A stretch of 64,000 bases of DNA, from positions 124,001 to 188,000 of the forward strand of contig NZ_CAKOET010000001.1 in NCBI RefSeq assembly GCF_933208495.1. Direction: 5' to 3'. Positions within the stretch are counted from its first letter, which is position 1, and every line of letters starts with the position of its first letter. Position numbers and translations under genes: made by a program. The notes below the pieces were generated by a model that saw nothing but the letters and a program-made list of their open reading frames with translations, was not told the origin of the DNA and did no database searches. Shown here in pieces: positions 51,465 to 53,880 of this stretch. Origin of the DNA: Convivina praedatoris (lineage in GTDB: Bacteria; Bacillota; Bacilli; Lactobacillales; Lactobacillaceae).

Positions 51465-51965
51465 ATGCAAATCTCCGGTGAAAAAATGTTAGCCGTTATA
51501 GAAGCACAAGACTATTATCAAGAGGCATTAACTGTGGCCGATGGTCAGGCCATTGAATTGGATCAACTGTTTCAAAAAGTTGATGAACATTTGATGGATG
51601 CCCAGCTAATGTCAATTAGTTTGGCAGTAAATGGCGGGGTCAGTGAAGGCGGAACCACGCTGACCTTAGAGAGTAATGTCATTAACCTGCCTTTGCGTTA
51701 TCAAAATCAATTAAAAAAGCTAGTCTATGTTGAAGAAGACTATGATGTTAATCTGTATATGTACATTGAAAATATGGATGTGAGTCAGTCCCACTTTAAG
51801 ATTGCTAAAGTCAGCTCGGTTACTGCTTATCATGATGATTTAGCCGGTGGACAAGTTAAAATTTCGCAATGGTTTGATGAACAGTTAGCACACATTGTTG
51901 AGGTTCAAAAGCAACTAGCTACCGAAGAAGCAGCTGAAAGAGAAGATCAAAATAAAAAAGCCTAA
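51465..51965 (+). CDS. Hypothetical protein, 166 aa
   Basis: This 166-residue protein has no membrane helix, no signal peptide and no motif that I recognise. It is rather acidic, with a Gln/Glu-rich C-terminal tail likely to be helical. Ribosome binding site GAAAGGG precedes ATG 51465. It converges on the 85-residue minus-strand gene and lies behind a terminator, so it is expressed apart from the oxidoreductase. Function unknown. Confidence 0.65.
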   Translation: MQISGEKMLAVIEAQDYYQEALTVADGQAIELDQLFQKVDEHLMDAQLMSISLAVNGGVSEGGTTLTLESNVINLPLRYQNQLKKLVYVEEDYDVNLYMYIENMDVSQSHFKIAKVSSVTAYHDDLAGGQVKISQWFDEQLAHIVEVQKQLATEEAAEREDQNKKA

Positions 51966-51972
51966 GTTCAAG

Positions 51973-52230
51973 TTAATCTTCGACTTGAATGCGGGCTTTG
52001 AGGTGAAAACGCTGATTGTCTTGCGTAAAGGTAGCTTGTAAGGTTGGGTTGCGTTCCTGTCCTTGAACGCTTTCGAGGACTCCTAAATCTAGAGCAGTTA
52101 GGAGCGCTTGAGCCAGCGCTTTTTTACTTGGTTGGATTGAGTCACTGAGTAAAAAATCATCAAAATGTTGATGGGTGCGCTCGCCCTGCTTTTGTAGGGG
52201 TTGGATTTGGATATCAGTTAGTTTAATCAT
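51973..52230 (-). CDS. Hypothetical protein, 85 aa
   Basis: This is a soluble small protein (MIKLTDIQIQPLQKQGERTHQHF...), Gln-rich with a conserved-looking end FHLKARIQVED. I do not recognise the family. It is convergent with the 166-residue gene, with only seven bases between the two stops. Its upstream side faces the structured RNA. Confidence 0.6.
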   Translation of the reverse strand: MIKLTDIQIQPLQKQGERTHQHFDDFLLSDSIQPSKKALAQALLTALDLGVLESVQGQERNPTLQATFTQDNQRFHLKARIQVED

Positions 52231-52289
52231 AGCTTTATTTTAACTGAGAAATTAGGCTGGATAAAGGACTGGCCTTCAGCAATTTAATC

Positions 52290-52298
52290 TGTTATAAT
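52290..52298 (+). promoter_or_regulatory. Promoter of the structured RNA, extended -10
   Basis: TGTTATAAT (52290-52298) is an extended -10 element; transcription would begin near 52303-52305. Confidence 0.7.
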
Positions 52299-52302
52299 CA
52301 AA

Positions 52303-52540
52303 GTATGCGATGAGTCGAACGCGTTATTGAAACGCGATCAGCGGCCTACTGTGTTCAATCACAAATCTCGGATTAGGTGTAGGTGGTAACGAAATTGTGG
52401 AATTCCGTTATCTCACCATGACTATCAGTGGTAACACTGAGGTGACGTTACTTGTTTGATTGAAGTTTACTTTAATCACGCCCGTCGGAGCGTATCTGGC
52501 ATGCCAAACTAACAGCTAACTTTCGAGTTAGCTGTTTTTT
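52303..52540 (+). ncRNA. Unassigned structured RNA, about 240 nt
   Basis: A closing helix pairs 52303-52312 with 52493-52504. Inside are hairpins at 52320-52336 (CGCGTT/AACGCG), 52345-52383 (CCTAC/GTAGG with two small inner stems), 52387-52410 (TAACG/CGTTA), 52426-52439 (CAGTG-GTAA-CACTG) and 52457-52478 (nine pairs, loop TTTA). A strong terminator (AACAGCTAACT-TTCG-AGTTAGCTGTT) ends it. No open frame of note is present. It does not contain RNase P, SRP, tmRNA, T-box or common riboswitch signatures I know. xseA has its own promoter, which favours an independent RNA over a leader. Confidence 0.65.
52511..52540 (+). terminator. Terminator of the structured RNA
   Basis: AACAGCTAACT (52511-52521), loop TTCG, AGTTAGCTGTT (52526-52536), then T residues; an 11-pair stem with a stable tetraloop. 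Confidence 0.93.
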
Positions 52541-52543
52541 ATT

Positions 52544-52570
52544 TTGCAGTGCCAATGGGACTGGTATAAT
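52544..52570 (+). promoter_or_regulatory. xseA promoter
   Basis: TGGTATAAT (52562-52570) is an extended -10; TTGCAG (52544-52549) is a possible -35 at 15 bases. Confidence 0.7.
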
Positions 52571-52593
52571 AAAAATACGACAAGGAGGGTCCC

Positions 52594-53880
52594 ATGGCCG
52601 ACAAAAATCAGTACTTAAGCGTCAGTGCTTTGAGTGCCTATTTAAAATTAAAATTTGATGCGGATCCTTACTTGGGCAAGGTTTATCTAACCGGTGAGAT
52701 TTCTAATTTAGGAAACCGGCGGGGACGTCATCTGTATTTTTCCATCAAAGATCCAGAAGGGCAGGCAGTCATTAAGGCCGCCATGTTTTCTTATGCCAGT
52801 CGCTTAAAATTTAATCCCGAAGAGGGCATGAAAGTTTTAGCCATTGGTCGGGTTCAATTGTACGAACCGAATGGTTCCTACTCAATCATCTTGGATGAAA
52901 TGAAGCCCGATGGGATTGGCGAATTGTTTTTAGCCTATGAACAGTTAAAGCAGCGCTTACAACAAGAAGGCGTTTTTAGCCATCCTAAAAAGCGTTTACC
53001 GAATTATCCTAAAAAAATTGCTGTTGTTACCTCGCCCACCGGAGCGGTGATTGAAGATATTGCCAAAACCGTAGCACGTCGGTTTCCAAAAGCTCAAGTG
53101 GTTTTATTTCCAGCGATAGTGCAAGGAGATCAGGCAGCCCCATCGATGATTAAGCAGTTAAATCGGATTGATGGTTTGGATTTTGATGTCTTGATTATCG
53201 GTCGTGGTGGTGGATCCATTGAGGATTTATGGGCCTTTAACGACGAGGCATTGGTACGAAGGATTAGTGAATTAAGCCTGCCTGTAATTAGTTCAGTGGG
53301 GCATGAAACCGACAATACCTTAACTGATTTAGTTGCTGATTGTCGGGCGGCCACGCCAACTGCTGCGGCTGAATTAGCTACGCCGATTAATCAACAGCAG
53401 TTAAAACAACATATTAATGATTTACAAAATCGTTTGTTGGCAGCCACCAGTCAGACCATCCGTCAGCGACAAATCTTTTTAGACCAACTAGTTAATCGGC
53501 CAATTATGCGCCAACCTGATCGCCTATATACTGTCTATCAGCAACGGGTTGATGGTCTCTATGAACGAATGGTTCGGGTTTGGGCGCATCGCCTACAAGT
53601 TAATCGCAATCAATTGAGCAATTTACGACAGCGCCAGGAACAACTAGGACGCCATCTATTGCAACCTCAGCAAGAAAAGTTAGCCATGTTAGCGACTAAA
53701 TTAAACCTAGTTAGTCCATTGACGATTTTGGGTCGCGGGTATGCCATTGTGCAAAAGGACAATGCGACTATTGTTCATAGTATAAAGGATCTAAAGGTTG
53801 CCGATGAGGTTGATTTACGCTTGGCCGACGGTCAAGTTCGGGCTGAAATTACAGGAGTAGAAAATGACAGAAGCAAATAG
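52594..53880 (+). CDS. xseA: Exodeoxyribonuclease VII large subunit
   Basis: This 428-residue subunit degrades single-stranded DNA. The N-terminal OB fold ([36 protein letters not shown]) is followed by the catalytic core with [29 protein letters not shown] and [24 protein letters not shown] precedes ATG 52594. It overlaps xseB by 17 bases. folD, usually next to xseA, is absent. Confidence 0.96.

Follow-up and report, generated by a model that had tools for sequence, protein, structure and literature searches.

A small RNA of Lactobacillales with complementarity to helices 89 and 90 of 23S rRNA: a candidate chaperone of ribosome assembly

What is encoded upstream of xseA in Convivina praedatoris, where ca. 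240 nt of DNA carry signals of transcription and no evident protein? The window (i.e. the whole stretch of DNA that was analysed, 64,000 nt of contig NZ_CAKOET010000001.1) had been described in a first-pass annotation as holding, at this place, an independent gene for a structured small RNA (sRNA). Here, the limits, relatives, structure and probable role of that RNA are reported.

The RNA gene, its signals and its parts

At positions 52305-52545 (+) of the window lies a gene for a structured RNA, equipped with a promoter and a terminator of its own. It sits between a small, convergent ORF on the minus strand (51973-52230), for which no Pfam match was obtained, and xseA, which was identified by Pfam PF02601. 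No ORF of at least 50 amino acids overlaps the gene, and none of at least 25 amino acids has both its start and its stop within 52303-52545, in agreement with the absence of a coding frame that had been claimed. The stretch 52290-52560 has a stable predicted fold (z of -3.1; only 1 of 200 shuffled sequences was as good). Covariation was judged in two alignments: A3, with 34 sequences from Convivina, Fructobacillus, Leuconostoc and close relatives, and A4, with 18 Weissella sequences (L157 was left out). The features, with the basis for each, are as follows.

52290-52298, +: extended -10 promoter TGT-TATAAT (sequence; kept ahead of the 5' box in relatives)
52305-52318, +: 5' box AUGCGAUGAGUCGA, at or adjoining the expected transcript start (invariant in A3 and A4)
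52320-52336, +: hairpin H1, CGCGTT / AACGCG (minimum-free-energy fold; seen by eye in relatives)
52345-52383, +: three-way domain P2, closed by 52345-52349/52379-52383 (covariation, A3 helices 1-3)
52351-52353/52360-52362, +: helix P2a within the P2 domain (covariation)
52365-52368/52375-52378, +: helix P2b within the P2 domain (covariation)
52369-52374, +: loop2, CGGATT, within P2b
52387-52410, +: hairpin P3, which presents loop3 (covariation, A3 helices 4-5)
52396-52401, +: loop3, UGUGGA, complementary to 23S 2473-2478, UCCACA (sequence)
52413-52445, +: hairpin P4, 52413-52417/52441-52445 and 52426-52430/52435-52439 (A3 helices 6-7)
52418-52424, +: P4 internal loop, AUGACUA (invariant in A4, nearly so in A3)
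52458-52477, +: hairpin H5, 52458-52465/52470-52477 (sequence; the Weissella counterpart covaries, A4 helix 4)
52479-52500, +: H-type pseudoknot (A3 helices 8-9, A4 helices 5-6)
52479-52481/52490-52492, +: pseudoknot stem S1, CGC/GCG (100% paired)
52484-52489/52495-52500, +: pseudoknot stem S2, GUCGGA/UCUGGC (100% paired)
52502-52510, +: 3' tail UGCCAAACU, complementary to 23S 2489-2497 with one G-U (sequence)
52511-52545, +: intrinsic terminator, an 11-pair TTCG stem (52511-52536) followed by T-rich sequence (the stem covaries, A3 helix 10)
52543-52570, +: separate xseA promoter, TTTGCA-16-TATAAT, outside the RNA (sequence)

The promoter, the terminator and the separate xseA promoter had all been named in the first-pass annotation, and each was located. 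The -10 element is conserved in relatives: among 136 distinct loci (L087, L094, L115, L128, L129 and four duplicates were left out), TATAAT was matched at five or six of its six bases in 79, against 7.9% at control positions, and TG stood ahead of the best hexamer in 64, against 8.7%. Together with the stable fold and the covarying helical domains described below, these signals uphold the assignment of an independent sRNA gene.

Two further open frames were noted. A mini-ORF in the tail (AUG-CC[AG]-AAC-stop), present in 36 of 54 tabulated rows (31 with UAA, 3 with UAG, 2 with UGA), was rejected, as Weissella often has it without a start or a stop; we think that its apparent stop is explained by the terminator stem. 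Upstream, at 51465-51965 (+), a 166-amino-acid protein with no Pfam match is encoded. Fructobacillus and Leuconostoc keep it, and weaker conservation extends to several other Lactobacillaceae; its presence ahead of the RNA marks an old shared locus.

Family membership and structure in relatives

The Infernal search of Rfam that had been proposed for this locus matched no family at its gathering score anywhere in the window. With permissive filters, RF02840 (Ref68/Lacto-3, also called Enterococcus sRNA 68) aligned over its full length (model positions 1-124) to 52306-52405 at 35.2 bits (E 3.7e-6), and the alignment keeps the 5' box, the CGGAU loop and the UGUGGA loop in order. The gathering score is 44 bits; the window RNA thus falls below it, and a Fructobacillus relative (L003, 45.5 bits) lies above. 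RF01732 (asd/MarS) reached 12.8 bits in the window, below its gathering score of 84 bits.

Of 295 Lactobacillales genomes, 171 have an RF02840 match with an E value no higher than 0.01, and in 74 the match exceeds the cut-off. In a class-wide sample searched at E 0.001 with stricter filters, such that weak matches were lost, RF02840 was found in 4 of 200 genomes, all four Lactobacillales. The streptococcal RF02840 loci are the asd RNA: RF01732 scored 136, 108 and 124 bits in L099, L101 and L103, respectively, and the gene following L099 is asd, as named by eye. The two models overlap in two loci (L103 and L120), which argues for a common family; Rfam assigns no clan to either. Across the 136 distinct loci, the 5' box TGCGATGAGTCGA is exact in 100 and carries one or two changes in the other 36, and UGUG[G/A]A follows downstream in 132.

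Genomes in which RF02840 had no match were scanned for the box with a tolerance of two mismatches, and nine box-like loci from them were examined. Family members account for five (L260-L264) and rRNA read in reverse for three (L265-L267); the last (L268) lies in other, probably coding, sequence. The members from genus g54 (L260-L263) have a promoter, the box ATGCGACGAGTCGA, hairpins, a UGUGAA loop and a terminator, and were missed by RF02840.

As judged from these alignments, the 5' half of the window RNA belongs to RF02840 as a divergent, sub-threshold member, and to a broader family in which asd/MarS is included. Rfam already lists this RNA family; the novelty lies in the 3' domain with its pseudoknot and in the complementarity with 23S rRNA. 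The earlier suggestion of a new, family-specific RNA accordingly survives for the 3' domain and fails for the 5' half.

Relatives of the window RNA are transcribed, according to published accounts. RF01732 was proposed in PMC2864571; the same RNA is MarS, a stable transcript, in Streptococcus pyogenes (PMC5613026), srf-17 in S. pneumoniae (PMC6212727) and Srn046 in S. agalactiae (PMC4448216). No relevant open-access paper was found under the names Ref68, Lacto-3 RNA or RF02840, and the family is not named in the passages of Grad-seq papers that were examined.

The helical domains are supported by covariation in relatives, the check that the first-pass annotation had called for. In A3, with H1 and H5 left out of the pair count (the alignment of the H1 region is out of register), 97.8% of 1564 cells are paired, and 30 of 46 pairs have changes on both sides. 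Sliding the partners as a control reduced pairing to 34-42%. In 500 shuffles, four of five measures were never reached, and the fifth (further pair types) was reached by 8. A4 behaved similarly: 98.0% of cells are paired, with double changes in 17 of 28 pairs; none of 500 shuffles reached any measure, and slid versions paired at 29-50%.

In Convivina, Fructobacillus, Leuconostoc and Weissella, the RNA is extended by a 3' domain whose H-type pseudoknot shows strong covariation. Both stems of the pseudoknot are 100% paired in either alignment; double changes affect 3 of 6 S2 pairs and 1 of 3 S1 pairs in A3, and 3 of 5 and 2 of 4, respectively, in A4. The tail motif GCC[AG]A is present in every row of both alignments. 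A mechanical search found the pseudoknot together with this tail in 54 of the 136 loci, in none of three rounds of shuffling, and in no control stretch 400 nt downstream. The pseudoknot pattern without the tail occurs in 95 of 136 loci versus 24-29 in shuffles; it is thus unspecific, and only the tail-bearing version was counted.

The long 3' part is found in those four genera and a few others (L055, L157, L158). An extended-class pattern, which includes loci without the pseudoknot (L127, L176), was matched in 63 of 397 Lactobacillaceae genomes. The pseudoknot with a AUGCCAAAC tail was also observed in genera g19 and g29 (L055, L158, L157), and is hence either older than one branch or transferred.

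The pseudoknot bears on one structural claim that did not hold. A 10-pair helix had been thought to join the two ends of the RNA; it was not found as such and is absent from the minimum-free-energy fold. The 5-pair core that could be recognized (5' AUGCG with 3' CG-U-AU) shows no covariation, and the middle pair is broken in 23 of 34 relatives. The 3' strand of the supposed helix lies in the S1/S2 pseudoknot, which had been overlooked.

Complementarity to 23S rRNA and joint evolution

Searches with the box and with its complement gave repeated matches spaced like rRNA operons, because the box is complementary to the 23S sequence UCGGCUCAUCGCAU (with one G-U). A Weissella 23S (2890 nt) was then searched with one wobble allowed in the box and in the tail UGCCAAACU and none in loop3, and each of the three has exactly one site. 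In what we take to be E. coli numbering and helix limits, these sites are 2506-2519 for the box, 2473-2478 for loop3 and 2489-2497 for the tail, all within 47 nt (2473-2519). They presumably correspond to the H90 side, the tip of H89 and the 3' strand of H89, respectively, with H89 and H90 placed at the peptidyl transferase centre (PTC). Unique complementarity to rRNA, a property by which an rRNA chaperone may be recognized, was thus found in a search covering 23S. For the core of the P4 internal loop (UGACUA), this Weissella 23S offered no exact complement. Loop2 was considered as a further site and rejected: by eye, it fits CAGGAU in some families, and not CGUAU or CGCAU.

The calculated duplex energies are -22.8 (box), -8.6 (loop3) and -13.5 kcal/mol (tail). 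In 1000 dinucleotide-shuffled 23S sequences the box site never occurred; given an 80-nt stretch of shuffled 23S, the loop3 site occurred in 6 of 1000 and the tail site in 0 of 1000. For every one of ten genomes whose 23S was complete or almost so, the PTC site was the best 23S complement of the first 172 nt of the sRNA. Shuffled sRNAs equalled the single-genome match in 0-15 of 100 trials in nine genomes and in 63 of 100 in G093, the box of which carries a GxG mismatch. Single matches are therefore only mildly unusual; it is the recurrence of one site and the joint evolution that carry the argument.

If wobbles are counted as pairs, all 13 nt of the box pair in 32 of 37 genomes; of the other five, four have a GxG at position 10 and one has a mismatch at the last base. 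The elements run box, loop3, tail in the sRNA, whereas an antisense copy of 23S would give box, tail, loop3; the RNA is thus not simply a decayed antisense rRNA gene. The sRNA gene was observed 2.0-2.6 kb from a 23S gene in three genera (L254 in G249, L255 in G004, L127 in G008), and such linkage to an rRNA operon was absent in the other 18 of 21 genomes checked.

The relevant 23S segment was read in 71 of 104 genomes and was paired with an sRNA locus in 70 (G045 contributed 23S only). No pattern found the PTC segment in the remaining 33, the window's own genome included, and these were left uncounted; two single-contig genomes of family f3 (G308 and G038) are among them. The pairing of the window RNA was read from Fructobacillus and Leuconostoc 23S.

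Position 2474 of 23S is C in 21 genera and U in 16, and no genus is mixed. C2474 occurs in most Lactobacillaceae read and in families f2, f3 and f6; U2474 occurs in families f4, f5 and f7 and, within Lactobacillaceae, in genera g4, g8, g22, g23 and g54 (f3 was taken for enterococci and kin and f4 for streptococci, from the Rfam families matched). In all 70 genomes, from 37 genera, loop3 (picked by its flanking stem without use of the 23S base) matches the 23S of the same genome as an exact Watson-Crick complement: it reads UGUGGA with C2474 and UGUGAA with U2474. For G008, G023 and G305, U2474 was predicted before the 23S was read, and all three predictions were borne out. Fisher's test, which ignores phylogeny, gave 7e-18, computed with 69 of 70 concordant (the loop of L107 had been mis-assigned).

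Phylogeny was taken into account with a tree of XseA from which G007 was omitted. Each trait requires six changes on it, and among the 28 genomes that have both there is no disagreement. The best tree has six independent pairs of coincident C/U switches, all in the same direction; only two of these pairs lie on well-supported branches, and the test is thus supportive, not strong by itself. The omitted genome (G007, taken for Leuconostoc fallax) has its xseA in three pieces, two with internal stops (L299, C5:61939-63196), which represents either a broken gene or an assembly error.

A second position follows the same pattern. At box position 6, four of 37 genomes have C, and each of these has G2513 in 23S; U6 accompanies A2513 in 26 of 26 genomes and G2513, as a wobble, in 7 of 37. 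The g54 boxes have C6, as G2513 in G060 requires, and their UGUGAA loop fits U2474 in G060 and G276. Compensatory change between RNA and rRNA, a second property expected of an rRNA chaperone, is thus observed, and the joint evolution of the sRNA and 23S rRNA is well supported.

Proposed role and relation to known systems

The best explanation, to which we assign a probability of about 0.6, is that the window RNA is the long, pseudoknotted form of one Lactobacillales-wide family that pairs in trans with H89/H90 of immature 23S rRNA, and that it probably acts as a chaperone of 50S assembly. We infer the binding to 23S, its timing on the immature molecule and the chaperoning outcome. The exposed box, loop3 and, in the pseudoknot clade, the tail would base-pair with the PTC strands of 23S; loop3 and the tail would be displayed by the structured middle part together with the pseudoknot. 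The target strands of H89 and H90 are base-paired and buried in the finished 50S subunit, which means that a pairing RNA has to reach them at an earlier stage; pairing would accordingly take place on immature 23S. There, the RNA would hold the H89 and H90 strands apart, preventing mispairing during assembly, and would be displaced or released as H89/H90 fold late.

In E. coli, PMC11260487 describes H89-H93 as forming the PTC, which lacks proteins that could aid its folding, and describes the PTC helices as folding late, H89 after H90-H93, with the aid of assembly factors. Expression of the S. agalactiae member falls in late stationary phase and at pH 5.2 (PMC4448216), which fits a growth-linked role. 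Against the chaperone reading, deletion of marS in S. pyogenes caused no significant change of growth in THY (PMC5613026).

Five other readings were weighed. The RNA could be an ordinary trans-acting regulator of mRNAs, as MarS is, with an incidental or phylogenetic resemblance to rRNA. PMC5613026 reports that MarS binds the mga 5' UTR and that changing CC88-89 to GG abolishes binding. Counted from the box, the CC of UGUGAACC is at 84-89 in 10 streptococcal loci, near CC88-89 of MarS, so the mga site probably overlaps loop3. Targets in mRNA, however, predict neither that loop3 should track a 23S base in 70 genomes of 37 genera nor that three unique sites should fall within 47 nt of 23S, and we regard this reading as unlikely, if worth keeping in mind. 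Regulation of mRNA and pairing with 23S could coexist.

Pairing with 23S might instead switch ribosomes off or mark them for decay, in hibernation or quality control. The same complementarity data would suit that outcome, as would sites in the catalytic centre; the strands are, however, inaccessible in finished 50S subunits. Moreover, the fall of the S. agalactiae member in late stationary phase, reported in PMC4448216, is the opposite of what hibernation would need. This role seems improbable to us. Slightly more doubtful is a sponge, in which nascent 23S would titrate the sRNA and so link the control of mRNAs to ribosome production. The abundance of rRNA speaks for it, as does the apparent overlap of the mga and 23S sites in MarS; the box, however, is conserved more than any other part of the RNA, for which titration gives no strong reason. 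Regulation of mRNA, ribosome inactivation and titration by rRNA are not mutually exclusive.

The position of the RNA directly upstream of xseA would suit a cis-regulatory leader, which we consider very improbable and have set aside given the terminator, the separate xseA promoter and the variable gene context. Within about 1.5 kb downstream, xseA was found in only 24 of 145 loci scanned (L128 and L129 repeat L002 and L001), and the neighbours elsewhere, as named by eye, include asd, coaE-like, hprK-like and other genes. Because neighbouring genes differ between lineages, the RNA is held to act in trans. A divergent 6S RNA, which the length, the RNA's own promoter and the first-pass guess had favoured, can be practically dismissed, since a 6S-like RNA lies elsewhere in the same genome (C9:7957-8142), RF00013 had no match in the window at gathering score and none up to E 10 in 52200-52600, and motifs and structure differ. 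The 6S-like RNA (L065) scored 27.7 bits against RF00013, for which the cut-off is 46.4, and its counterparts in G001 and G002 are also below the cut-off.

RNA-assisted folding of rRNA has been described for eukaryotes and archaea. To our knowledge, no trans-acting bacterial RNA has a conserved target in ribosomal RNA. The open-access literature consulted, mostly titles and the openings of abstracts, reports no bacterial sRNA that pairs with the PTC region of 23S. If the chaperone reading is right, the rRNA target would be new; the RNA itself is listed by Rfam as two unlinked sRNA families. One job would then be shared by Ref68, Lacto-3, asd and MarS; the retention of the RNA in so many lactic acid bacteria would be partly explained; and a virulence-associated streptococcal sRNA would be tied to ribosome production.

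Several known RNAs bear comparison with that of the window. It is like 6S RNA in being an independent structured RNA of about 200 nt, and differs from it in its conserved motifs and structure. With RF02840 (Ref68/Lacto-3) it has in common the 5' box, the CGGAU-type loop, the UGUGGA loop and the order of elements; that model, however, has 124 positions and ends at loop3, whereas the window RNA adds P4 with AUGACUA, H5, the pseudoknot and the AUGCCAAACU tail. The asd/MarS RNA (RF01732) has the same 5' box, a UGUGAAC loop, and its own promoter and terminator, but the pseudoknot with the tail was not found in the streptococcal loci, and the known function is activation of mga in S. pyogenes.

The chaperone snoRNAs of eukaryotes are of the U3/U8/U14/snR30 type. 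The window RNA is bacterial and has no known homology to them, and its pairing is predicted from sequence. The likeness lies in a trans-acting RNA with several short elements complementary to rRNA. We would give even odds to a snoRNA-like bacterial system, in which an order-wide RNA would pair at two or three places in H89/H90 and chaperone the folding of the PTC, with the Leuconostoc-Weissella-Convivina group adding the third element. By this analogy, the ribosomes of lactic acid bacteria may be served by a helper RNA, as those of human cells are.
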